DNA of 37,773 bases from a virus, in the IMG/VR virus record IMGVR_UViG_3300042549_004870, positions 1 through 37,773 of that record; one strand, 5' to 3'. The position numbers and the translations under genes were made by a program. The notes below the pieces were generated by a model. The model was not told the origin of the DNA and did no database searches. It saw nothing but the letters and a program-made list of their open reading frames with translations. This document shows, one piece after another, positions 1-33,045 of this stretch. The stretch's first letter is position 1. The number at the start of each line of letters is the position of its first letter.

Positions 1-143
1 GTGTGAACTACATGTATTGTAGCACCTACCAACACTTCTTGTTTTTCGTTCTTAACTACACCAGAAATAGAGGATGTGGTAACTTGACCGAATCCCATTA
101 AAACTGATACTGAAAGGAACAACGATAGAATCGTTTTTTTCAT
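1..143 (-). CDS. Secreted protein with CarboxypepD_reg-like start (TonB-receptor/Oar-like), 3' partial
   Basis: The gene starts at ATG 143 and runs off the left edge, so only about 47 residues are visible. The first 20 residues (MKKTILSLFLSVSVLMGFGQ) look like a Sec signal peptide. They are followed by SISGVVKNEKQEVLVGATI, the typical first strands of a CarboxypepD_reg-like beta-sandwich, which in Bacteroidota begins many TonB-dependent (SusC/Oar-type) outer-membrane receptors. If so, the product would be exported to the outer membrane. The leader is A/C-rich with no Shine-Dalgarno, and a hairpin terminator lies just upstream. The domain call rests on pattern recognition of a short stretch. 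The full length, and whether there is a TonB barrel, cannot be seen. A small secreted adhesin is the alternative. Confidence 0.6.
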   Translation of the reverse strand, partial: MKKTILSLFLSVSVLMGFGQVTTSSISGVVKNEKQEVLVGATIHVVH

Positions 144-160
144 GTTTGTTTTGTTTTTTG

Positions 161-197
161 TTAAAAAATAAAGGGTGGAGACGATATGTTCCACCCT
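161..197 (-). terminator. Rho-independent terminator after the Hc1-like gene
   Basis: On the minus strand an 8-bp perfect stem AGGGTGGA/TCCACCCT (197-190 pairing with 179-172) encloses a 10-nt loop and is followed by TTATTTTTT. It sits 8 nt past the stop codon of the Hc1-like gene and 18 nt before the next start codon. This is the clearest terminator in the window. It would end transcripts coming from the right, so the secreted-protein gene at 143 needs read-through or a start very near the hairpin. Confidence 0.8.
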
Positions 198-204
198 GTT
201 GGGT

Positions 205-387
205 TTAATTTGATGTTTTAGTTTCTTCTACTGAGGCCTGACGATAATCTGTAACTAATTTTTTTAAGTCACCGATATGCGTTCTTGCATTCTTTTGAGA
301 TACTTTTGTTGTCTTGTTGTGCTCTTCTTCAAATTTTACGAACAACGATTTCATTGTTTCAAAAATTTCTTGCTTCTTACTAGCCAT
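205..387 (-). CDS. Histone H1-like Hc1-family small basic protein
   Basis: This 60-residue Lys-rich protein has the pattern MASKKQEIFETMKSLF, then ARTHIGDLKKLVTDYRQASV. It resembles the short Hc1 (histone H1-like) proteins common in Bacteroidota, which have an N-terminal amphipathic helix and then AR.....IKKL...YR..SV. Such proteins are thought to bind DNA non-specifically and compact the nucleoid. It is probably cytoplasmic. The gene has its own promoter (411-442) and its own terminator (161-197), so it looks like a single-gene transcript likely to be strongly expressed. The usual Ala/Lys-rich C-terminal tail is short here. It may organise phage or host DNA, but that is inference from family resemblance. 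Confidence 0.65.
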   Translation of the reverse strand: MASKKQEIFETMKSLFVKFEEEHNKTTKVSQKNARTHIGDLKKLVTDYRQASVEETKTSN

Positions 388-670: not shown

Positions 671-994
671 TTAGAGTGCAAAACTTTCACCACACCCACA
701 GGTTCGGGATGCATTGGGGTTTATAAATTGGAAACCCTTACCATTAAGTCCGTCTGAAAAATCCAATTCAGTTCCGAAAAGATATAGTAACGATTTATTG
801 TCTATTAAAATTTTTACTCCATTGTTTTCTGCAAGTGTATCATCAGGTTGTTTTTCGGTATCAAATGAAAGGTCATAAGATAGACCACTACACCCACCAC
901 CTTTAACTGCCACTCTAACAAAGGGAGTTTGAAATCCACTTTCTTCAATGAGTGAGTTTAATTTTTTAGCTGCCGTTTCTGATACTGTTACCAT
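671..994 (-). CDS. iscA: IscA/HesB-type (A-type) Fe-S carrier protein
   Basis: This 107-aa protein is full length for the A-type carrier family. It keeps the three metal-binding cysteines: C35 in GGGCSGLSY and C99 and C101 in the C-terminal TCGCGESF. A-type carriers accept a cluster from a scaffold such as IscU and pass it to apo-enzymes in the cytoplasm. The ATG overlaps the IscU stop codon (TAATG), so the two are translationally coupled. This is the usual chromosomal order but is unusual on a phage. Which targets it serves is inference; the cluster-type proteins encoded here are the radical SAM fusion and the Cas4/AddB-like nuclease. Confidence 0.93.
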   Translation of the reverse strand: MVTVSETAAKKLNSLIEESGFQTPFVRVAVKGGGCSGLSYDLSFDTEKQPDDTLAENNGVKILIDNKSLLYLFGTELDFSDGLNGKGFQFINPNASRTCGCGESFAL

Positions 995-1404
995 TAGATA
1001 TGTGTTTCTTCAAATATCAATTCTTCTAAACCCTGTTTCTTACGATAGTCGTTTACTGCTGATTTAATTGCGTCTTCTGCCAAAACTGAACAATGTATTT
1101 TAACGGGTGGTAGATTCAATTCTTCTACCAAAGACATATTGTCCATCTTAACGGCTTCATCCAAAGACATTCCTTTTAACCATTCGGTTGCAAGAGAGGA
1201 TGCTGCAATTGCAGAACCACAACCAAATGTTTTAAATTTTGCATCTGTTATAATACCATCTTCAACTTCTATTTGTAATCTCATTACATCACCACATTCT
1301 GGTGCGCCCACTAATCCAGTTCCTACATTTGGTTTAGATTTGTCCAAAGTTCCAACATTTTTTGGGTTGGAATAATGGTCTAAAACTTTATCACTATATG
1401 CCAT
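994..1404 (-). CDS. iscU: IscU-type Fe-S cluster scaffold protein
   Basis: At 136 aa this is complete for IscU. The cluster ligands C37 (PECGD, with D39), C62 (GCGSAIA) and C105 (KIHCS) are all present. So is LPPVK at 98-102, which in IscU is the recognition site of the HscA chaperone. IscU builds [2Fe-2S] and [4Fe-4S] clusters using sulfur from a cysteine desulfurase. No desulfurase, HscA or ferredoxin gene is in the window, so the host would have to provide them. A good promoter (1427-1458) lies just upstream and drives iscU, iscA and probably the 66-aa gene. All active residues are intact, which argues for a working protein. Confidence 0.95.
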   Translation of the reverse strand: MAYSDKVLDHYSNPKNVGTLDKSKPNVGTGLVGAPECGDVMRLQIEVEDGIITDAKFKTFGCGSAIAASSLATEWLKGMSLDEAVKMDNMSLVEELNLPPVKIHCSVLAEDAIKSAVNDYRKKQGLEELIFEETHI

Positions 1405-2066: not shown

Positions 2067-2513
2067 TCAAATAATTATTTTTAATAGTTTTTTAAAAGTT
2101 TCATCTGGACTATCCGATGTATCCAAATCTACAAAATATTCGGTAGGTGGTTCATAATCTAATACAAACTCATCTTCTCTACCTCTAATCTTCTTAGTGT
2201 GACAATATATCTCTTGTACTTTGCATTGAGACTTAAATTCGTCTCTTAAATGTTTATATGGACTAACTAAACTAATTACAACATCGTTCCCAGAATCGTC
2301 TAAAAACCTTGCAATATCAAATGCCTTTTGGATATTCTTTTCTCTACCTTCTTTTGAATAATCTTTGTTTGGAAATAATTCTCTTAACTGGTCTCCGTCA
2401 ATATGAAATACGGATTTTCTCCAATTTGCTTTATCAGTTTGTAACCACATTTGTAACTTCTTAGCCAAAGTAGTTTTACCACTACCTGGTTGACCTGTGA
2501 AAAGGTATATCAT
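2067..2513 (-). CDS. Small P-loop kinase (APS-kinase / polynucleotide-kinase-like)
   Basis: The protein has 148 aa. Walker A is GQPGSGKT at 7-14, followed by FHIDGDQLRELF and KDYSKEGREKNIQKAFDIA. That resembles adenylylsulfate kinase (DGD.(V/L)R ... R..NI), but it is shorter than the usual ~200 aa. It phosphorylates a hydroxyl using ATP; the substrate cannot be told from sequence. The start is 3 nt after the stop of the HAD phosphatase gene, so the pair is coupled. In T4 Pnk a P-loop kinase is fused to a HAD phosphatase, so a split end-healing pair is plausible. An APS kinase for sulfation chemistry is the alternative. Confidence 0.75.
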   Translation of the reverse strand: MIYLFTGQPGSGKTTLAKKLQMWLQTDKANWRKSVFHIDGDQLRELFPNKDYSKEGREKNIQKAFDIARFLDDSGNDVVISLVSPYKHLRDEFKSQCKVQEIYCHTKKIRGREDEFVLDYEPPTEYFVDLDTSDSPDETFKKLLKIII

Positions 2514-6443: not shown

Positions 6444-7598
6444 TTATTTTATAGTATATAAAGTTCTATCTAAGATATTAGATTTGATATCAGATAATTC
6501 AATATTAGAATTACATTTAATAAATAATAATCCAATTCTACCAAATGGACTTCCTTTTAATTCAGTACCAGTTATATTCATTGGTATTGATAAATCAATA
6601 TTTAATTCTCTATTGTAATGTACACCAATAAATGGAGTATCATTGGATACCGATAATGTATGTCTTAATATATGATTATGTGTTGATACAAAATCATCTA
6701 CATTAAGAGTTTCGTTTATAAATGGGTTTGTGTAATATTCTGCGTATTTGAAACCTGTGGTTTTTTCTATTAAAAAACTATATAAATCACCAGGGCATCT
6801 ACGAGTTATTTCTAATATTTTAAATGAATTTACTGTTTTTATAAATTGTGTATGTACTAACCCATCTACTAAATTTAGTACATCACTCATATGTTCTATA
6901 TCAGTTCTGATTTCATTAAGAATTGATTCTGAAAAATCAGTTACTACATTACTTGTATCAACAGTAAATTCATTGGTACTGCCATTTTCGATTACAATAA
7001 AATCAATTAATATTTTTTTATTAGAAATAAATGCTGTATGACTATATAATTGTCCTTCTATATATTCTTCTATCAAATAATTCTTAGAAGATGAAAAACT
7101 AATTGCAGTATTAATTGCAATATCAATAGAATCTTTATCAATATTTTTAATTACTGAAACTCCTCTACCACTATATGCATCAACTGGTTTTACTATTAAT
7201 GGATTAATAGAATTATACGATTCCTCTTTACTGAATATGTTAGGTACATGCAATCCGTTTGAGAGTGCGAAGTTTCTAAATTTATTTTTATTATTTATAG
7301 TTTCAGTTACTTCCGTAGAATCCAACCCATAAAATTTATTATTTCCATTTACTTTTGTAGCAGATATGTAAGACATATCATTACAGCCAGGAACTATAAC
7401 ATCAAAATTATAAGTGTTAAGTATATTTTCTAATAGTTCTAAGTTTGAATAATTGCAGTTTATATAATTTGTAGTGTATTTTGCCAAACAATCATTTGGG
7501 TTTCCTCCAATAACATATGTATCGTATCCTTTATTGATAAGGAATTCATAGATAGGTAACGATGATACATTTGTATCTAATAGTAACGCTTTTTTCAT
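6444..7598 (-). CDS. ATP-grasp ligase (CarB/peptide-ligase-like)
   Basis: This 384-aa protein has a pre-ATP-grasp Rossmann domain at the N-terminus (KKALLLDTNVSSLPIYEFL ... DVIVPGCNDMSYI). The ATP-grasp signature follows: LIVKPVDAYSGRGVSVI at 134-150, YLIEEYIEGQ at 174-183, and the metal-binding ILEITRRCPGD at 261-271. Such enzymes join a carboxylate to an amine or thiol through an acyl phosphate. In sugar loci relatives attach amino acids to amino sugars. Next to the oxidoreductase and aminotransferase-like genes, a ligase that decorates a sugar is plausible, but the substrate is unknown. Confidence 0.85.
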   Translation of the reverse strand: MKKALLLDTNVSSLPIYEFLINKGYDTYVIGGNPNDCLAKYTTNYINCNYSNLELLENILNTYNFDVIVPGCNDMSYISATKVNGNNKFYGLDSTEVTETINNKNKFRNFALSNGLHVPNIFSKEESYNSINPLIVKPVDAYSGRGVSVIKNIDKDSIDIAINTAISFSSSKNYLIEEYIEGQLYSHTAFISNKKILIDFIVIENGSTNEFTVDTSNVVTDFSESILNEIRTDIEHMSDVLNLVDGLVHTQFIKTVNSFKILEITRRCPGDLYSFLIEKTTGFKYAEYYTNPFINETLNVDDFVSTHNHILRHTLSVSNDTPFIGVHYNRELNIDLSIPMNITGTELKGSPFGRIGLLFIKCNSNIELSDIKSNILDRTLYTIK

Positions 7599-7599
7599 T

Positions 7600-8715
7600 T
7601 TATTTTACTTTTGTCCAACTCTTATTCTTTGCAGATTTTGAAATTGCTTCTAATAACAAAATACATTCTTCGGATTCTTCTATTCCAAATGTACTTCTAT
7701 CAGTATTTCCGATTTTAAAATTTTCTAAATCATCAAATGCATCTTCATAAAAGTTTGCAAGAGCCTCAATATATCCTGCAGGATGACCTACTTTAAATCT
7801 ATTGTATCGTAATTTAGAAGCAGTGGAGCAAGGTTCGGAACTTCTATCTAATGTATATAGTTTACCACTATTATCAGCCATTTTTAGATATTCTGAGTCT
7901 GATTGTAACCATTCGGCACTTCCCTTTGTACCATATATTCTAACTTTCAATCCATTTCGATTACCTAATGCGGATTTACTATACCACATATTACAAACTA
8001 CATCATTTGAATAATTTATTATTGAATTTATATCATCAATAACGTTTGGAAAATTACCAAAACTATTTTCAGTAGCAATTGTTTCTATTGGAATTTCATC
8101 AGTTAAGAATTTAACGATTGAATATGTGTGTGAACCCAAATCTAATGATATAGTTGGAACTACACCATCAACTAATCTCCAATCTTGTGGTTTCATTGGG
8201 TTTCCATCTCTCAATCTAAGAAATCCTTCTTGTTGCATTTCTATTTGTAGTTGAGTTATCTTACCCAACTCACCTCGTTTGATAATTTCTCTTAGTTCTT
8301 TCAACATTGGATAACAAACGTAATTAAATACAACCGAAATAAAATTGTTATTTTCTAATTCTTTTATTCGTTGAATTTCATTATAGTTAGTTGTTAATGC
8401 TTTTTCGCATATGATAGGAATATGTAATTCCATTGCGTATATGATTTGCTCAATGTGTTGATTGTTTGGAGTTAAAATAACAACTGCTTCAATATTATCT
8501 TTTTCACTTAATAACATTGTTTTATAATCAGTATATAAACGTTCGGATGGTACTCCATAAATTTCTGATGATTGTTTATTAATTTCAGAATTTTTACTAA
8601 ATGTGCCTGTTACTATTTTAAATTTATTTGATAAATTTATTGCAGAATAATGTGCATATCCTACTGCCGAATTAATTCCACCACCGATAACTGCTATTGA
8701 TATTTTATTTTCCAT
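7600..8715 (-). CDS. Gfo/Idh/MocA-family NAD(P)-dependent sugar oxidoreductase
   Basis: This 371-aa protein is normal length for the family. The N-terminal dinucleotide fold is SIAVIGGGINSAVGYAHY. ICEKALTTN at 102-110 is a variant of the family's EKP motif, with the Lys (K105) kept and Ala for Pro. DLGSHTYSI (D192, H196) carries the catalytic Asp/His pair. The family oxidises or reduces ring hydroxyls of nucleotide sugars or inositols. The gene starts within the last base of the fusion gene's stop (TAATG), so it is translationally coupled to it. It probably makes a keto-sugar intermediate for this locus. Confidence 0.88.
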   Translation of the reverse strand: MENKISIAVIGGGINSAVGYAHYSAINLSNKFKIVTGTFSKNSEINKQSSEIYGVPSERLYTDYKTMLLSEKDNIEAVVILTPNNQHIEQIIYAMELHIPIICEKALTTNYNEIQRIKELENNNFISVVFNYVCYPMLKELREIIKRGELGKITQLQIEMQQEGFLRLRDGNPMKPQDWRLVDGVVPTISLDLGSHTYSIVKFLTDEIPIETIATENSFGNFPNVIDDINSIINYSNDVVCNMWYSKSALGNRNGLKVRIYGTKGSAEWLQSDSEYLKMADNSGKLYTLDRSSEPCSTASKLRYNRFKVGHPAGYIEALANFYEDAFDDLENFKIGNTDRSTFGIEESEECILLLEAISKSAKNKSWTKVK

Positions 8716-10889
8716 TATATGAATATTCCAAATACTACTTTATGTAAGACATTTGATTTTTTAATTTGTTTATAGATATCGGGTAATGATTGTATTGCTG
8801 CAGGACATATTATTACATCATCACTTAATATATCTAAATCAGTTAATTCATTTTCATTTGTTATTATTTTTGTAACTTTACCAGCCTTACCAAATAATGT
8901 TTTATTTTTTATCCATTTAGATTGGTATCCATCTCCCCATAATATTGCACTTTCATTACTATGATGTGAAAGTATATTTTTATGAAATATATTATTTTCT
9001 TTTAAATTAGATAATATATTTTCAGCCATTTCATTTGAAATCTTTAATCTATCTCTAATTAAATCATCAACATATACAAATTGAAATCCATTAGTTAATA
9101 ATCTTCCGGCTAATTCATATATTGCATATATCATTTCATTAGTTGGTACTTCTAATTTGAAATTACAACTAATTTGGATAAAATTATCTTCAAACCCATA
9201 TTCTTTAATTAAATTAACAAATTCAGTTAATTCAGTAGAAAAATAGTTATCTTCGGTTAAAATGTATTTTATCGTTAGATTTTCTTGTGCATCAATCGAT
9301 TGTTTATATACTTTAAGATTATCTAATACAGTTCGTATATCACCCTTACCTCTTATTTCTTTAAAAGTAGATTGTGTTCCTGCATCAATACTTGTTACAA
9401 TTCGTATTTTTTTATTTGATGAAATTTCATTTAATTTTTCTGAAAATTTCAAACTATTTGTAAGAACTCTGATTTTTGAAACTCGTTCACTATCCAATAA
9501 GTTTTTAGTTATAGTATCAAATTTTGGTTTCAATGTAGGTTCGCCCCCACCCCAAACAATATGAGTATTTTCTAAATAATCGCCGTTTATTAAATCTGAA
9601 ATTATTGAATCAGTATCATATGATGGTTCTCTACCTCCATAATATTTTGGTGAACAATATGTACAACGCATATTACAATATGTGAAATTTTCCAATGAAA
9701 TGTATTTTATCTTTTCATCGTTTGTTTTTTCAAATCTTTGTAAATATGGACACCCTTCACACTCCTCATACTTATCAATATTGATTAAATCCTCAACTTC
9801 TTTTTTTCTATCTAAAATAGTATCCAATGTAATATCAGTTGAATTTGGCATCAATACAATATCACCTTTTATTTTTCCTTTGTAGAAAAAACGTTTACAA
9901 CATCCAATAATTTCTTCGGGTCCAAAAAATATAGAATTTTTTAAATCAGAACATGACAAATATGTTTTGAAACAATAATCTAAATCAGATATAAGTTGAT
10001 TGGTATCTGTACTATTTAAGAATAACGATACTGCGTATTTAAAATTTGTATTATTTTTATTGTATCGTTTAGTTATAAGTTTTCGTAATTCAATTGAGAA
10101 TGTATTTTCTAAATGATTTATAAATTGTAATTTACTATCATCATTAGAATTGTTTATTAAATATAAAATTACACCCAAACATTGAGTTACTATTTCATTT
10201 TTTAATTCATCAATAATTGGGTTATCAATATTTACAATTTCAGTAATTGCATTTAGATACCCATCAATTCTATCAATGGTTAATTCTTTTGTAATTGAAT
10301 CATTACGTTGAATTTTATTGTATATCTTTGAATTTAATATTTGAATATTGATAGATGCTAATAGTATTTCGGTAACATATCGGATATCTTCGTGTATTCC
10401 ATCTGAAAATTGTGTGGATATTAAATCTCTTTTGAATAGATAATTAAAAACTTCTTGCTTTTCTTTGAATGATACGATGTTTGTTACTAAATCTTCTCTA
10501 ATGTTATCATTATATTGTAACTTTAAAGAGTGTGCTATTACATCTATACTATCATCATTATGTATTGCTGAAATTATGTGTTGAATATTTTCATCATAAA
10601 AGGTATCATCATCGTCTACAAACCAAACCCATTTTGATGATGAATTTTCAATACCGAAATTTCTAGCGATACCAGGATATAATCTATTTGGAATATTGTG
10701 TATGATAACATTTTTATCAAAAGTAGATGTTATCTTTTTATTAGTTTCATCTACTCCACTATTTACAACAACTATCTGATAATCATCAAAATTTAAGGTT
10801 TTGAAACTATCAGTTATTTTAGTTATAGTATCTACTAATAACTCCGGTCTATTATATGATGGAATTATTATAGAAAGTAAATTTTGCAT
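8715..10889 (-). CDS. Fusion: GT2 glycosyltransferase + Cys-rich twitch + radical SAM + Rossmann-like tail
   Basis: One uninterrupted 724-aa reading frame. Residues 1-120 are a GT2 domain (LSIIIPSYNRPELL, acidic DDDD at 92-95). Residues about 130-300 are helical with no clear family. Residues about 325-385 hold GPEEIIGCCKRFFYKGKIKG ... ECEGCPYLQ, which looks like a SPASM/twitch-type cluster region placed before the core. The radical SAM core follows with CxxxCxxC (C405, C409, C412), GGGEP at 447-451 and IRVLTNSLKF. Residues about 645-724 (AILWGDGYQSKWI ... DVIICPAAIQSL) look like a nucleotide-binding fold. It would pair sugar transfer with radical chemistry such as epimerisation or deoxygenation. 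It is the first gene after promoter 10907-10938. Confidence 0.85.
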   Translation of the reverse strand: MQNLLSIIIPSYNRPELLVDTITKITDSFKTLNFDDYQIVVVNSGVDETNKKITSTFDKNVIIHNIPNRLYPGIARNFGIENSSSKWVWFVDDDDTFYDENIQHIISAIHNDDSIDVIAHSLKLQYNDNIREDLVTNIVSFKEKQEVFNYLFKRDLISTQFSDGIHEDIRYVTEILLASINIQILNSKIYNKIQRNDSITKELTIDRIDGYLNAITEIVNIDNPIIDELKNEIVTQCLGVILYLINNSNDDSKLQFINHLENTFSIELRKLITKRYNKNNTNFKYAVSLFLNSTDTNQLISDLDYCFKTYLSCSDLKNSIFFGPEEIIGCCKRFFYKGKIKGDIVLMPNSTDITLDTILDRKKEVEDLINIDKYEECEGCPYLQRFEKTNDEKIKYISLENFTYCNMRCTYCSPKYYGGREPSYDTDSIISDLINGDYLENTHIVWGGGEPTLKPKFDTITKNLLDSERVSKIRVLTNSLKFSEKLNEISSNKKIRIVTSIDAGTQSTFKEIRGKGDIRTVLDNLKVYKQSIDAQENLTIKYILTEDNYFSTELTEFVNLIKEYGFEDNFIQISCNFKLEVPTNEMIYAIYELAGRLLTNGFQFVYVDDLIRDRLKISNEMAENILSNLKENNIFHKNILSHHSNESAILWGDGYQSKWIKNKTLFGKAGKVTKIITNENELTDLDILSDDVIICPAAIQSLPDIYKQIKKSNVLHKVVFGIFI

Positions 10890-10940: not shown

Positions 10941-11585
10941 TTATTGTTTGTAAATTTCAAATTTACTCAAATCTGGGTATGGTAATTCTAAATCAGGATT
11001 AGATTTTTTCTCACCCTTTGTTGTATAAAATTGATTCATCAACAATAAACCTCTTGCAGCTAATTCAGGCATCATATAGAAATTCCAACCCAACATATCA
11101 AAGTGGTCTTCGTGATATGAACATTCTCTTCTACCACTATATCTAGCTCGTTTGAACCAAAAGTATGCTTCTTCGTTATCGGTTAAAATTGCACCACCTT
11201 TACTTAATTTGAAATGTTTATACGGACCTGTGAATGAAACACACATATGCGTTCCTGATTTGTACATATCAGCCGTAAAACTTAACGCACTATCCCATAC
11301 ATTACTACCCTTTAAATTGTATGAACCTTTTATGGTTTTACCTTTTACTGGTTCAAAATCAATTTTCAATCCTGCATGAATTATTTCACAAGGAACTGAT
11401 GGGTATGTTCTACAAGGTATAGAAACCACTCCATTTGGAATACTTTTCTTAACATGATGTTCGTAGTATAACGCCAAAAATAAAGCGTTACTCATATTGT
11501 CAACAGTTACTACATATGGTGCTCCTGTATATCCACCAAGTGCACTTTCAAAATCTTCTGTTATTTTGTAAATTCCGTTTGCCAT
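10941..11585 (-). CDS. Short DegT/DnrJ/EryC1/StrS-like aminotransferase
   Basis: The 214 aa here compare with about 370 in the family. Landmarks are present but compressed: FESALGGYTGAPYVVTVDN (cofactor phosphate region), VVSIPCRTYPSVPCEIIHAG, WDSALSF at 97-103 (PLP-ring Asp), then SFTGPYKHFKLSKGGAIL. In that last motif K123 aligns with the Schiff-base Lys by its spacing to GG. YFWFKRARYSG and LGWNFYMMPELAARGL also match. The C-terminal small domain is missing. It could transfer an amine to a keto-sugar made by the oxidoreductase or SDR, or it may be a binding-only relic. The intact reading frame argues against decay. Confidence 0.75.
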   Translation of the reverse strand: MANGIYKITEDFESALGGYTGAPYVVTVDNMSNALFLALYYEHHVKKSIPNGVVSIPCRTYPSVPCEIIHAGLKIDFEPVKGKTIKGSYNLKGSNVWDSALSFTADMYKSGTHMCVSFTGPYKHFKLSKGGAILTDNEEAYFWFKRARYSGRRECSYHEDHFDMLGWNFYMMPELAARGLLLMNQFYTTKGEKKSNPDLELPYPDLSKFEIYKQ

Positions 11586-14659: not shown

Positions 14660-15279
14660 AAAGTATCGTAATAGTTGTTTTGTCTTTCTTGTCTGTCAAT
14701 CGTTTTTGGATGTTTGATACAATATATTTCTTCAAATGGAAAGTTTGTATAATTTTCAAATCCACCAATTCTTTCGTGTACTTTGCCAGTCCAACCAATT
14801 GTTTCTTTGTTTTTGTATATTCTTGTTTGAACATCTGGGAAATTAACCCAACCTTTTTCATTAACATTCCATTTCCACTTATCAATATGTGACTGAGTTA
14901 ATCCTTCAACGGTATTAATACGGGGAACTAATATTAAATCTTTATCCAAATTGGTATCTAATATATCTTCTAAATTGTAAATTAAATCATTTTCCAAAAA
15001 TTCATCAGCATCCAATTGGAATATCCACTCACCTTTACATTGTGAATTCAATAGATTTTTCCATTGTGCGAAATCATTATCAAATTCAGACTCAATCAAT
15101 GTAATTTTATCTGCATTACCTTGTAATTCCAAATATTCAATTAATTCAATTGGTGACTTTGGTGTATCTAAGAGGACTACTATTTCTGAGTTCTCTCCTT
15201 TGTAGTTTAACAATTGATTCACCAATCTAATTGTTTCTTCAACCTCATTACAGGCCGTTATTGCGTAACTTAATTTCAT
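14656..15279 (-). CDS. GT2-family glycosyltransferase
   Basis: In this 207-aa protein SYAITACNEVEETIRLVNQL is the classic GT2 opening and WIFQLDADEFLENDL at about 85-99 gives the DXD motif (DAD). VQTRIYKN and WTGKVHERI resemble the acceptor loop of the WaaE/KdtX-like branch. The start overlaps the SDR gene by 32 nt, which is long but not unusual here. Confidence 0.85.
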   Translation of the reverse strand: MKLSYAITACNEVEETIRLVNQLLNYKGENSEIVVLLDTPKSPIELIEYLELQGNADKITLIESEFDNDFAQWKNLLNSQCKGEWIFQLDADEFLENDLIYNLEDILDTNLDKDLILVPRINTVEGLTQSHIDKWKWNVNEKGWVNFPDVQTRIYKNKETIGWTGKVHERIGGFENYTNFPFEEIYCIKHPKTIDRQERQNNYYDTL

Positions 15280-16111
15280 TTATATAACTTTTTAATTTAT
15301 CAGTTGGTTGCCATCCTAATCTTTCAATGGTATCGTTATTTAATCTTAATGTTTTTTTATAATTACCTTTCACATCATCCACATATTCTCTTTTAATTTC
15401 ACCAAACATATCTGCAACTTCATTTAAAGAATAGTTTTTACCTGTTCCCAATTCCCACGCATCTTCATGCTTTTCATCACTTTCTGCAATTCGGATTAAA
15501 CCATCTACGATATCGTCAATATGAGTAAAATCTCTCCTCTGTTCACCATCACCATGTATTTTGATTGGTTCTCCGTTTGAAATAGCATTTCTCCATATTC
15601 CAATAACAGCAGCCATATCGGAACTAACTAATTCACCTGGTCCGTACACATTATAGAAACGAGCAATTTCTGCGTTTAATCCATAAACTCCCCTAAACAT
15701 TTTTATCCACTCTTCTCCCATATGCTTTGTTAGTGCGTATGGTGATAACATTGGATTATGATGACGAGATGATGAACCTGCGTAAATTAATTTAGATTTA
15801 TTATGATATACATATTCAACCACTTGCTTAGTACCATCTACATTAACTGAAAATGTTAGTGTTGGATTTTTGAATGAAGGTTGTATTCTACTCAATGCTG
15901 CTAAATGAAATATGTAAGTATAATGTTTATCATCTATATTATTCATAGCTCTAATATCACCACCTAAAAAGTTACATCCGTCTGGTATCTTTGACTCTTT
16001 ACCAATTGAAAGGTTATCTATTACATCAACTTGGTATCCTCTTTTAATTAATTCTATTGATAATGCATATCCAACAAATCCACAACCTCCCGTTACTAAT
16101 GCTGTTTTCAT
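15248..16111 (-). CDS. NAD-dependent nucleotide-sugar epimerase/dehydratase (extended SDR)
   Basis: I chose ATG 16111 (287 aa) over the ATG 36 nt upstream because the protein then begins directly at MKTALVTGGCGFVG and the start forms a TAATG overlap with the gene before. TGGCGFVG (7-14) binds NAD. The active site is Ser around 113-115 and YALTK (Y125, K129). RFYNVYGPGE and IHGDGEQRRDFTHIDDIVDG are nucleotide-sugar features of the UDP-sugar 4-epimerase/dehydratase group. It probably makes or inverts a UDP- or dTDP-sugar for the neighbouring transferases. Confidence 0.9.
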   Translation of the reverse strand: MKTALVTGGCGFVGYALSIELIKRGYQVDVIDNLSIGKESKIPDGCNFLGGDIRAMNNIDDKHYTYIFHLAALSRIQPSFKNPTLTFSVNVDGTKQVVEYVYHNKSKLIYAGSSSRHHNPMLSPYALTKHMGEEWIKMFRGVYGLNAEIARFYNVYGPGELVSSDMAAVIGIWRNAISNGEPIKIHGDGEQRRDFTHIDDIVDGLIRIAESDEKHEDAWELGTGKNYSLNEVADMFGEIKREYVDDVKGNYKKTLRLNNDTIERLGWQPTDKLKSYINEIKLRNNGL

Positions 16112-16485
16112 TAAAATACTTTTTCGTTTGATGTTGTATAACTCCATGCAGAACCACTAGGATACCCATATGTAGTTGATGTACTTCCAAATCCAAATGG
16201 TGGATTAGCTATTGTTATAGAACCACCTCCTGGTGTTGTTGCAATTGTTCCAAATGAACCACTACTACACGTTATTTTATATGGATTGTATGGGTCTACA
16301 TAGTGTGGGTGTTGCCACATTGGAGTAATATTTGGTGTTCCCCATCCACCTTCACCTATTGGAGCTCCATCGTTAACTTCTGCCAATTTTTCTTTTAAGT
16401 AATCCCATTGCTTTGGAGTGATGTTATATTCATGTACTCCTTCCGTAAAACCTTTTAACCAAATAACGAATTCTTTTGATGTCAT
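16111..16485 (-). CDS. Small Gly/Ser-rich protein with phage WLKGF-type N-terminus
   Basis: This 124-aa protein starts FVIWLKGFTEGVHEY, then TPKQWDYLKEKLAEV, a short helical pair I associate with small proteins of large phages. From about 45 on it is rich in Gly, Ser, Thr, Pro and aromatics (GGWGTPNITPMWQHPHYVDP; GSTSTTYGYPSGSAW). That is unlike an enzyme and more like a virion, fibre or adhesive tail. It is encoded in the middle of the glycan block and coupled by TAATG to the SDR. The Ser/Thr-rich tail could be an acceptor for the glycan, which is inference. Confidence 0.6.
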   Translation of the reverse strand: MTSKEFVIWLKGFTEGVHEYNITPKQWDYLKEKLAEVNDGAPIGEGGWGTPNITPMWQHPHYVDPYNPYKITCSSGSFGTIATTPGGGSITIANPPFGFGSTSTTYGYPSGSAWSYTTSNEKVF

Positions 16486-28139: not shown

Positions 28140-28170
28140 TAATATACTAAAAATTATCCAAATTACCAAA
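28140..28170 (-). promoter_or_regulatory. Bacteroidota-type promoter P6, leaderless
   Basis: On the minus strand, TTTG (28170-28167, in TTTGGTAA) is followed by 20 bp and TATATTACATG. Only 5 nt separate the -7 box from ATG 28134, so the start codon would be at or near the 5' end of the RNA. The -33 box overlaps the end of the second Mom-like gene. Confidence 0.8.
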
Positions 28171-28966
28171 ACTTACTTGCCAACTCCGTTTCAGGTGCAA
28201 TTGTAGTATGGAGTTCTATGTCCTTATTAAATTCTCTTGTATCTTTTGGATAATTTTTAGGGTTGTGTTTAAGAGTTTTAAGTAATTCTCTTTTTTCTTT
28301 TTTATCTGCACCCAATACCTGTATGTATCTATGTTTTGGTGGTTCTTCCCTTCTCCAAAATTGTTTATATCCTTGCTTACCTATTTCTCTCCTAAGATGT
28401 TCTAAATTACCACTACCCCACATTGAAAACACAGTTCTACTATGAATCCATTTGTAAGGGTCATTTGAAAGTGATATTCCGTAATTTGGCATCAATGCAA
28501 TATCGGTATTCATTCCTTGATAAATCCAATTGGTTGCCTGATAAATGCCTCCTAAATGTTCTTGTCCGTTATCTGCGTATGAGATTAAGATTTTAATTGC
28601 TTTATCATTTTCTCTAAACCACTTAAACGATTGTCCTAACGCATATGACTCAATGTTTGAACCATATCCATCATCACAATACAATCGTGTCAATTCTAAA
28701 ATGTTATCTTTTGTAATTGAATCTGAAACCGAATTTGCGGCTCTTGCACCTACTGGGAATCCATACACTAAACATCCAATCAATTTATCACTATCTCCTA
28801 ATGCATTTGACTCATCGGTTTTGTAAAAGATACCCAATGAATATCTACACGCAGTCCATGCATGTGTATAGTGTTTCTTAACTATAATTTCTTTTGCAAC
28901 TGAACTACTTATTTCTCTAACCGATACTCTACTCGTATCACAATATAACTTATTTAACTCTTTCAA
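28163..28966 (-). CDS. Mom-like DNA base-modifying acyltransferase family protein
   Basis: This 267-aa protein has IIVKKHYTHAWTACRYSLGI with His-Tyr at 32-33. It then has LIGCLVYGFPVG, LELTRLYCDDGYGSNIES, and LISYADNGQEHLGGIYQATN with D132 and Y142. The His-Tyr pair plus Asp and Tyr ten residues apart match the residues I recall for the active site of phage Mu Mom, which converts adenine to an acetamido-like N6 form. The C-terminal KHRYIQVLG.DKKEKRELLK is shared with its neighbour. It overlaps the upstream Mom-like gene by 17 nt; the two are paralogues. Which base or group it modifies is unknown. Confidence 0.85.
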   Translation of the reverse strand: MKELNKLYCDTSRVSVREISSSVAKEIIVKKHYTHAWTACRYSLGIFYKTDESNALGDSDKLIGCLVYGFPVGARAANSVSDSITKDNILELTRLYCDDGYGSNIESYALGQSFKWFRENDKAIKILISYADNGQEHLGGIYQATNWIYQGMNTDIALMPNYGISLSNDPYKWIHSRTVFSMWGSGNLEHLRREIGKQGYKQFWRREEPPKHRYIQVLGADKKEKRELLKTLKHNPKNYPKDTREFNKDIELHTTIAPETELASKFW

Positions 28967-29717
28967 TTGGTTCTAATTTTAATATTTCTTCAGTATATTT
29001 TTCTAATGTTTTTGGATATGAATATAAAGGATGTTTTATATTTTTCAACAATTCCTTTTTATCTTTTTTATCTTTGCCCAAAATGTAGATATACCTATGT
29101 TTCTTTGGTTCTCTTTTTACCCAAAATGGTTTATCAATAAGTTCTTGTAATTTGAAAGGTGAGGTCGTTCCCCAATAAGGTGCCATAGTTCTACCATGTA
29201 TCCATTTACCACCTTCTTCAAAACGAAAAGACCATGTGTCGTTTGGTCTAATACTTGTTCCTTGATATAACCAATTTGTTGCCTGATATATTTGTCCTTT
29301 GTGTCCTTGCACAGGGTCGGAGTATGATATCAATGCTCTTATTTGTTTTGCGTTTTCTTTTAACCATTCAAAGGACTTTCCGACAAACCAACTTTCAATG
29401 TTACAACCATAACCGTCAAATACAAAAAGTCTTACTAATTCCATCACTTCCGTTCTATCCAATGTTTCACTTATAGATGCTCCACAATGTCTACCAATCG
29501 GGTCACCATAACAAATTACTCCAATTAGTTCCTGATTTATTCCACCAAAGAATTTATGTTCGGTGTCATTTTCGTAGAACAAACCTAATGCGTAACTAAC
29601 TTTTGTCCATTGTTTAGAATAATGATGCTTTACTATTATATTCTTTGCAACCGACTTTTCTATTAACCTTACACTAAACTTGGAAGTATCACAATATTGT
29701 TTATCTTGTACTTTCAT
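28950..29717 (-). CDS. Mom-like DNA base-modifying acyltransferase family protein
   Basis: This 255-aa protein is close in architecture to the downstream paralogue: a shared start (KQYCDTSKFSVR), KHHYSKQWTKVSYALGLF with His-Tyr at 32-33, MELVRLFVFDGYGCNIES, LISYSDPVQGHKGQIYQATN with D134 and Y144, and PKKHRYIYILGKDKKDKKEL. Sequence drift between the two is large, so this is not a recent duplication. Its ATG lies within the end of the HTH gene, so the HTH protein and both Mom-like proteins form one transcript from promoter 29910-29940. Keeping two copies suggests different targets or a heteromer. Confidence 0.85.
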   Translation of the reverse strand: MKVQDKQYCDTSKFSVRLIEKSVAKNIIVKHHYSKQWTKVSYALGLFYENDTEHKFFGGINQELIGVICYGDPIGRHCGASISETLDRTEVMELVRLFVFDGYGCNIESWFVGKSFEWLKENAKQIRALISYSDPVQGHKGQIYQATNWLYQGTSIRPNDTWSFRFEEGGKWIHGRTMAPYWGTTSPFKLQELIDKPFWVKREPKKHRYIYILGKDKKDKKELLKNIKHPLYSYPKTLEKYTEEILKLEPIERVK

Positions 29718-32445: not shown

Positions 32446-33045
32446 TCAATTTTTCTTTAATGGATAAGTGTATATATTTTTAGGTAATGTTTCTATCACC
32501 CTAACCCCCACATCCTTTGCTTTGTATCTTCTATTTATCTCCACACCATATGGTCTGTCTAACATAGATAAAGTTCTAATGTGAAATGATTTACCATCTA
32601 CTTCTAATTTTTTACCCGAACTTGTTTTACCCAAATATTTAAAATTAGATGCCTTGTATATAACCCCACTATGTCCTTGTTCTTCGTCTGCGTAAGATAT
32701 AACAAATTCCCAATCTGTGTTTTGTCTCAACCATCTCAAAGTTCTTCCAACAAAGAAAGACTCTGCGTTTTTGGGTGTTTCGTCAATTAAACACAATCTT
32801 CGTAATTCTAACACTCTATCGGGTGCTTTTGGATAGTATGTTTGTCCTGCAGATGGGCCTGCGGGCCTTGTATATATGCAAACTCCTATCATTTCGGGAA
32901 TATCAAACTTACCATTTTTGAATAAACAAAAAGTATGTTTTGCTTGTATATTTACATAATCGGAATAGTGCCATTTTTTAAGAAATTTTCTAACCGTATG
33001 ATTAAAAGTTGTTTCTTGAACTATATAAGATTTTACTTCACTCAT
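32446..33045 (-). CDS. Third Mom-like acyltransferase family protein
   Basis: This 199-aa protein has FLKKWHYSDYVNIQAKHTFC (His-Tyr at 26-27), MIGVCIYTRPAGPSAG, VLELRRLCLIDETPKNAES, and ISYADEEQGHSGVIYKASNF with D120 and Y130. The HY and D-x9-Y layout of the other two is kept. It is shorter, lacking the C-terminal KHRY extension, and is more divergent. It sits 2 nt after gp41 helicase, so it is co-transcribed with replication genes and apart from the other pair. Confidence 0.8.
   Translation of the reverse strand: MSEVKSYIVQETTFNHTVRKFLKKWHYSDYVNIQAKHTFCLFKNGKFDIPEMIGVCIYTRPAGPSAGQTYYPKAPDRVLELRRLCLIDETPKNAESFFVGRTLRWLRQNTDWEFVISYADEEQGHSGVIYKASNFKYLGKTSSGKKLEVDGKSFHIRTLSMLDRPYGVEINRRYKAKDVGVRVIETLPKNIYTYPLKKN

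Follow-up and report, generated by a model that had tools for sequence, protein, structure and literature searches.

A glycosyltransferase-radical SAM fusion protein in phage cassettes and bacterial sugar-modification islands

A single open frame in the IMG/VR virus record IMGVR_UViG_3300042549_004870 raises the question of whether one protein may truly carry both a glycosyltransferase and a radical S-adenosylmethionine (SAM) enzyme and, if so, what such a protein would do for a phage. The window analyzed here was the whole 37,773-nucleotide stretch (positions 1 to 37,773 of that record), and the gene in question, here called GT2-rSAM, joins a family 2 glycosyltransferase (GT2) to a radical SAM (rSAM) half. 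GT2-rSAM is a genuine four-unit fusion, in which a complete TarP/TarS-like GT2 is followed by a twitch-like segment rich in cysteines, then by the radical SAM core, and finally by a small Rossmann-like tail. With a probability of roughly 0.5, it is a bifunctional cytoplasmic glycan-tailoring protein glycosyltransferase that phages acquired from bacterial protein-glycosylation islands, chiefly those for flagellin; the substrates, phage acceptor, step order, and radical reaction in this reading are ones that we infer.

Reality and domain layout of the fusion

The GT2-rSAM gene begins with ATG at 10889 and stops at 8715-8717 on the minus strand, with 724 codons in one open frame; the opposite (plus) strand across 8715-10889 is rich in stops. 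A preliminary description of this DNA had reported a continuous 724-amino-acid (aa) frame at 8715-10889, and its coordinates stand once the strand is corrected to minus. The GT2 motifs, CxxxCxxC, and GGEP that it named were borne out by Pfam matches to PF00535 (GT2; residues 6-129, E = 6.6e-20, 72.1 bits versus a cut-off of 23.3) and PF04055 (Radical_SAM; residues 403-533, E = 6.9e-17, 62.6 bits versus a cut-off of 29.5), together with C405xxxC409xxC412 and G447-G448-G449-E450-P451. Its Rossmann-like tail likewise gained support from G652-x-G654, which is invariant in a 25-row alignment, and from a bacterial relative with a match to CoA_binding PF02629 (E = 3.1e-4) that falls slightly short of the family cut-off; the tail is better preserved in the bacterial relatives. 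The description had also counted four cysteines before the core. The segment is indeed cysteine rich, but six are present (C306, C313, C330, C331, C377, and C380), five of them invariant. No equivalog among the NCBIfam profiles scored above its cut-off, and none of the PHROG profiles spanned more than one domain. An AlphaFold2 model of the whole protein from 25 aligned sequences had a mean pLDDT (predicted local distance difference test) of 88.5 and a pTM (predicted template modeling score) of 0.80, and residues 305-724 modeled alone gave 89.3 and 0.89.

Both catalytic sites are well conserved. The GT2 half belongs to the GT-A fold class: it passes the PF00535 cut-off and keeps the DxD metal motif and the ED/HED base region, and neither DxDD (D92, D94, and D95) nor HED (H166, E167, and D168) varies in the alignment. 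Residues 1-310, including the helical part that follows the GT-A domain, share the fold of the wall teichoic acid transferases TarP, TarS, and RmlT (Z of about 20-21 over 280-307 aligned residues, 15-18% identity), which differ from GT2-rSAM in having no radical SAM part and in using ribitol phosphate as the acceptor. In the rSAM half, C405, C409, and C412 are invariant and GGGEP is mostly so; the PF04055 score and the CxxxCxxC motif place it in the radical SAM superfamily. Because a PDB fold search with the whole model was dominated by GT2, the rSAM half was modeled and searched alone, and it matched SkfB (Z = 15.6, root mean square deviation 2.9, 209 residues aligned) and the pyruvate formate-lyase activase PFL-AE (Z = 15.4), with BlsE, CteB, anSME, and DesII ranking high in Foldseek. 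For both halves these matches, made with predicted models, show fold and not function.

The segment before the core resembles a twitch domain with differences. The auxiliary cysteines of twitch and SPASM domains follow the pattern C-x9-15-G-x4-C, then CxxC. In GT2-rSAM the spacing is C313-x9-G323-x6-C330, then C377xxC380, with six residues rather than four after the glycine, and the segment is N-terminal to the core. The SPASM/twitch enzymes SkfB, CteB, and anSMEcpe share the rSAM core fold with GT2-rSAM, as do the sugar-acting enzymes BlsE and DesII; however, the auxiliary cluster domain of the first three is C-terminal, and none of the five is fused to a glycosyltransferase. The family NF033640, named for an N-terminal twitch domain, gave a weak match to the core only (41.4 bits, profile positions 104-308 of 398); GT2-rSAM falls far under its curated cut-off of 170 bits and is not a member, and NF033640 has no GT2 domain.

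The preliminary description knew no phage or bacterial enzyme of this layout, a statement now contradicted by its occurrence in 18 or more bacterial species of several phyla and in two separate phage lineages. IMG/VR held six further contigs, representing four distinct genes, that encode the whole fusion at 55-69% identity. Scanning 84,980 species genomes for the motifs gave 18 bacterial loci, every one with GT2 first, then twitch-rSAM, then the tail, in Pseudomonadota, Cyanobacteriota, Acidobacteriota, Poribacteria, and Saganbacteria. Among annotated phage genomes and plasmids there was no close relative; both gave partial matches of less than 60% identity, those on plasmids to the C-terminal half only. 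A sequencing error joining two genes, which the description had named as the case that would undo the fusion, is excluded by junctions free of stops in all four other distinct viral genes and in 17 of the 18 bacterial loci. An assembly or sequencing artifact is therefore refuted by more than 20 independent full-length frames from isolates and metagenomes; nothing in the window supports it, and its one point of support is a junction stop in a Prochlorococcus single-cell genome. The ratios of nonsynonymous to synonymous change (dN/dS) between the window gene and its relative in phage locus L002 were about 0.32 for GT2, 0.08 for the twitch-like segment, 0.15 for the rSAM core, and 0.23 for the tail, showing purifying selection on each segment.

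Two relatives depart from the common state. In Prochlorococcus sp. AG-402-B05 (L062:8996-11299, the single-cell genome), GT2 and twitch-rSAM lie in one frame with a single TGA at 9977-9979, exactly on the domain junction and with an ATG two codons further, which may be either a single-cell amplification error or a natural split. In Siccirubricoccus phaeus (L063:8933-11287), CNMKCxYC is replaced by RDLQRGYC, so that two cluster cysteines are gone; the GT2 DxD/HED motifs and the twitch cysteines are retained, neither ATP-grasp nor AMP-ligase genes are neighbors, and this naturally rSAM-dead protein is the sole relative with rSAM cluster cysteines lost. Since GT2 was kept while two rSAM cysteines were lost, the two activities are at least separable, and these two sequences together suggest that the halves may be able to work apart.

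Distribution and partner genes

In the window and in the four other distinct phages, GT2-rSAM lies second in a cassette of constant order (five of five): a short DegT protein, GT2-rSAM, a Gfo/Idh dehydrogenase, and an ATP-grasp ligase, with variable flanking genes (Table 1). In a tree, these five phages group together beside an Aquabacterium metagenome-assembled genome and Neptuniibacter, both of which also have ATP-grasp. A second viral group (L020, L021, and L041) carries an AMP-ligase, an acyl carrier protein (ACP), and NeuD in place of ATP-grasp; it falls within the bacterial part of the tree, and the gene was therefore acquired by phages at least twice. L020 and its relatives additionally encode an HMW1C-like GT41. 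In this lineage the HMW1C-like GT41, a TylF-like methyltransferase, NeuD, AMP-ligase, Gfo/Idh, ACP, and GT2-rSAM stand beside phage tail and lysis genes.

Gfo/Idh is the partner seen most consistently: 23 of 27 loci have it near GT2-rSAM, and L055 has it at a distance of about 10 kb. When 14 bacterial genomes were searched throughout, the best Gfo/Idh match was beside GT2-rSAM or about 10 kb from it in 12. Genome G003 has Gfo/Idh pieces interrupted by stops next to GT2-rSAM and a better-scoring copy at another site, and Neptuniibacter gave no match at the threshold of the genome-wide search. For ATP-grasp, one significant match was obtained in each of nine bacterial genomes, always adjoining GT2-rSAM, and none in the other genomes searched. 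ATP-grasp occurs in 15 loci and AMP-ligase with ACP in nine others (eight with NeuD), which amounts to near mutual exclusion; the exceptions are L055, with both modules (its AMP-ligase about 10 kb off), and L049, with ATP-grasp and a weak (22%) AMP-ligase match. On the tree, the acylation-module label changed twice, versus 7.6 changes for shuffled labels. The two modules may be interchangeable routes for activating a carboxylic acid and attaching it to the amine of a sugar. In five loci, the DegT enzymes scored best against, and under the cut-off of, DesI (dTDP-4-dehydro-6-deoxyglucose aminotransferase), the product of which is dTDP-4-amino-4,6-dideoxyglucose; those of L060 and L065 matched PseC above its cut-off.

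The bacterial GT2-rSAM genes are located in patchy sugar-modification islands. Broad spread through vertical descent was considered and rejected. Carriers make up 1 of 300 genomes of the Prochlorococcus family, 1 of 349 of the Aquabacterium order, and 4 of 347 of the Pseudoalteromonas family, a patchiness that points to horizontal movement of the genes. In 8 of the 18 bacterial loci (L048, L049, L052, L053, L054, L055, L059, and L065), flagellin, FliD, FlgK/FlgL, FliA, or FleQ/FleR-type genes, named by our own interpretation of the reference protein sequences, are found no more than about 20 kb away. The laboratory strain Prodigiosinella confusarubida LacA (NZ_CP025085), which derives from Serratia sp. 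ATCC 39006, has its GT2-rSAM gene at about 2,546,265-2,548,553, with fliC/fliD on one side and fliA on the other. In L059, GT2-rSAM is between fliC/fliD and fliA, the standard site of enterobacterial flagellin glycosylation islands (PMC4875605). In the viosamine island, an aminotransferase, acyl-ACP genes, an acyltransferase, and a methyltransferase yield a modified 4-amino sugar (PMC3927599). Like the flagellin islands that make modified viosamine (P. syringae vio and P. aeruginosa PAK a-type; PMC3927599) and the enterobacterial islands (PMC4875605), GT2-rSAM loci hold a DegT/VioA-type aminotransferase, ACP-linked acyl supply, a NeuD/VioB-type acyltransferase, and glycosyltransferases, and several likewise adjoin fliC/fliD/fliA. 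Unlike the GT2-rSAM loci, these islands gave no radical SAM, Gfo/Idh, or ATP-grasp gene in a word search of PMC4875605 and no occurrence of "radical" in one of PMC3927599; the fusions described in PMC4875605 join GT41 and one GT2 to methyltransferase domains and not to rSAM.

Table 1. GT2-rSAM, its segments, and other genes of the window
Feature	Position	Strand	Basis
GT2 - twitch-like - radical SAM - Rossmann-like fusion protein, 724 aa	8715..10889	minus	Open reading frame, Pfam, alignment, AlphaFold2
GT2 catalytic domain, residues 1-230	10200..10889	minus	PF00535 E 6.6e-20; invariant D92, D94, D95, H166-E167-D168
Helical segment, residues 231-304	9978..10199	minus	Model secondary structure; aligns with C-terminal part of TarP/TarS-type glycosyltransferases (model 2..306 on TarP 1..327)
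Twitch-like Cys segment, residues 305-395	9705..9977	minus	C313, C330, C331, C377, C380 invariant in 25-row alignment
Radical SAM core, residues 396-630	9000..9704	minus	C405xxxC409xxC412, GGGEP 447-451; PF04055 E 6.9e-17; fold matches SkfB, PFL-AE
Rossmann-like tail, residues 631-724	8718..8999	minus	Alignment, AlphaFold2, relative's PF02629 match
Short DegT/DnrJ/EryC1/StrS-type pyridoxal phosphate protein, 214 aa, cassette member 1	10941..11585	minus	PF01041 E 6.7e-10
Gfo/Idh/MocA dehydrogenase, cassette member 3	7600..8715	minus	PF01408/PF22725/PF02894
ATP-grasp ligase, cassette member 4	6444..7598	minus	PF02655 E 8.2e-8, PF13535 E 4.3e-7
NDP-sugar epimerase/dehydratase (SDR), same glycosylation block	15248..16147	minus	PF01370 E 2e-42
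IscA-type and IscU-type Fe-S assembly proteins	671..1404	minus	Profile matches

Proposed reaction and its alternatives

Since both catalytic sites are conserved in one polypeptide, it is fair to suppose, as the preliminary description did, that glycosyl transfer and radical modification may be coupled. In the reading that we favor, the ATP-grasp ligase (elsewhere AMP-ligase, ACP, and a NeuD-type acyltransferase) would install an N-acyl group on a nucleoside diphosphate (NDP)-amino-deoxysugar, and the donor in bacteria would probably be a dTDP-4-amino-4,6-dideoxyhexose acylated on its amine. The GT2 half would transfer this sugar to a protein ahead of export or assembly, namely flagellin in bacteria and probably a virion protein in phages. 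The rSAM half, which would hold a 4Fe-4S cluster for SAM cleavage and probably another in the twitch-like segment on its N-terminal side, would then abstract a hydrogen from the transferred sugar or from the acyl group on it, and Gfo/Idh would add or remove a hydride at the resulting carbonyl. We put forward only tentatively, and would not bet on, the fullest form of this proposal, in which one enzyme glycosylates a protein and also edits the attached glycan by radical chemistry, has spread among flagellin islands, and has entered phages on at least two occasions, where it builds virion glycans otherwise unknown.

Several observations weigh against the favored reading. The rSAM fold matches are generic, and substrate and product are both inferred. 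In the stretches seen, some of them unextended, 10 of the 18 bacterial loci have no flagellar genes. The short DegT keeps the Lys and Asp positions of its family with the C-terminal half missing, and judged from its sequence it may not be an active transaminase. Two cluster cysteines are lost in L063, as described above. Finally, the hosts of the T4-like cassette phages are probably Bacteroidota, a call based on an outer-membrane receptor-type gene in L002 and on glycosyltransferase similarity to a Flavobacterium phage. Bacteroidota usually have no flagella, and the phage acceptor must therefore differ from flagellin.

Among the alternatives, the one that survives best is that the rSAM half modifies the protein acceptor itself, at a side chain or the backbone of flagellin or a virion protein, and that GT2 glycosylates the same protein, giving two coupled post-translational modifications. 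Most of the solved structures closest in fold to the rSAM half are enzymes that modify peptides or proteins (SkfB, CteB, SuiB, anSME, and PFL-AE). However, BlsE and DesII, whose substrates are sugar nucleotides or nucleoside sugars, rank high as well in what is a generic fold, and the most constant partner is a dehydrogenase of sugar type; we consider this alternative unlikely. Less likely again is a role in serotype conversion or superinfection exclusion, in which the host lipopolysaccharide (LPS) or capsule would be remodeled and the acceptor would be lipid linked or a polysaccharide. This is a frequent role of phage glycosylation loci, and the GT2 fold is similar to that of the wall teichoic acid transferases TarP/TarS, but the bacterial relatives neighbor flagellin and the phage loci hold no membrane-rich flippase, polymerase, or anchor- or transporter-like membrane protein. 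Among the bacterial loci, only three have a protein with at least six predicted transmembrane segments, and the scarcity of membrane-rich proteins fits a cytoplasmic acceptor. We rank lower still the idea that the halves act on unrelated substrates of one pathway and are fused for co-expression, for example with rSAM and Gfo/Idh making the carboxylic acid that ATP-grasp or AMP-ligase/ACP attaches. An acylation module of one of two exchangeable types accompanies the fusion, a class II 3-deoxy-D-arabino-heptulosonate 7-phosphate (DAHP) synthase lies within one phage cassette (L003), and a stop separates the halves in L062; yet all other relatives stay fused despite large divergence. DNA glucosylation was set aside as a role of the phage gene because its bacterial homologues are in flagellar islands.

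Phage setting and meaning

The DNA polymerase PolB, clamp, and clamp loader of the window are similar to those of Microcystis phage Mel-JY01, and its GT4 block recurs in Mel-JY01 and in Flavobacterium phage immuto, an isolate. Immuto pairs this glycosyltransferase block with a short DegT (83% identity) followed by a PglD-like acyltransferase, without a GT2-rSAM cassette; the cassette therefore belongs to a variable glycosylation block of T4-like phages. The short DegT of the window is 73-92% identical to those of the other phage cassettes, and this protein (window 10941-11585; L086:18113-18757) is conserved in phages that otherwise share little. In L003, the full-length DAHP synthase (L003:8608-9936; PF01474, E = 4.4e-157) lies between the short DegT and GT2-rSAM, and its company with Gfo/Idh and DegT is reminiscent of the aminoshikimate genes (RifH/RifK/RifL).

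Other window genes may bear on the cassette. The short-chain dehydrogenase/reductase (SDR) is a possible feeder of glycosylation, and IscA/IscU possibly support Fe-S clusters; in L004, IscA follows directly after the ATP-grasp gene of the cassette (L004:14488-14811). Fe-S assembly genes were rejected as fixed companions, being present only in the window and L004/L007 and absent from immuto and Mel-JY01, with the other records incomplete. By eye, a short P-loop kinase (window 2067-2513) resembles adenylylsulfate (APS) kinase, a possible source of 3'-phosphoadenylylsulfate (PAPS) near the glycosylation block. Three small proteins of 267, 255, and 199 aa (window 28163-29717 and 32446-33045) form a repeated family with common motifs by eye, such as 'KHHYS..W' and 'ISYAD..QGH.G.IYQATNW'.

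Each component of GT2-rSAM is already known. A literature search, with subscription papers outside its reach, found no description of a GT2-rSAM fusion and no relevant link of radical SAM enzymes to flagellin glycosylation; in the literature searched, radical SAM chemistry was likewise unlinked to glycosylation of virion proteins. GT2-rSAM points to a class of protein glycan that could not be predicted from known sugar pathways, and the gene, its partner genes, and a laboratory carrier strain offer a handle for finding the first such glycan. That two phage lineages captured the gene suggests a benefit from this kind of glycan, either on the particle or within the host. GT2-rSAM is a real and apparently undescribed tool for unusual sugar coats.

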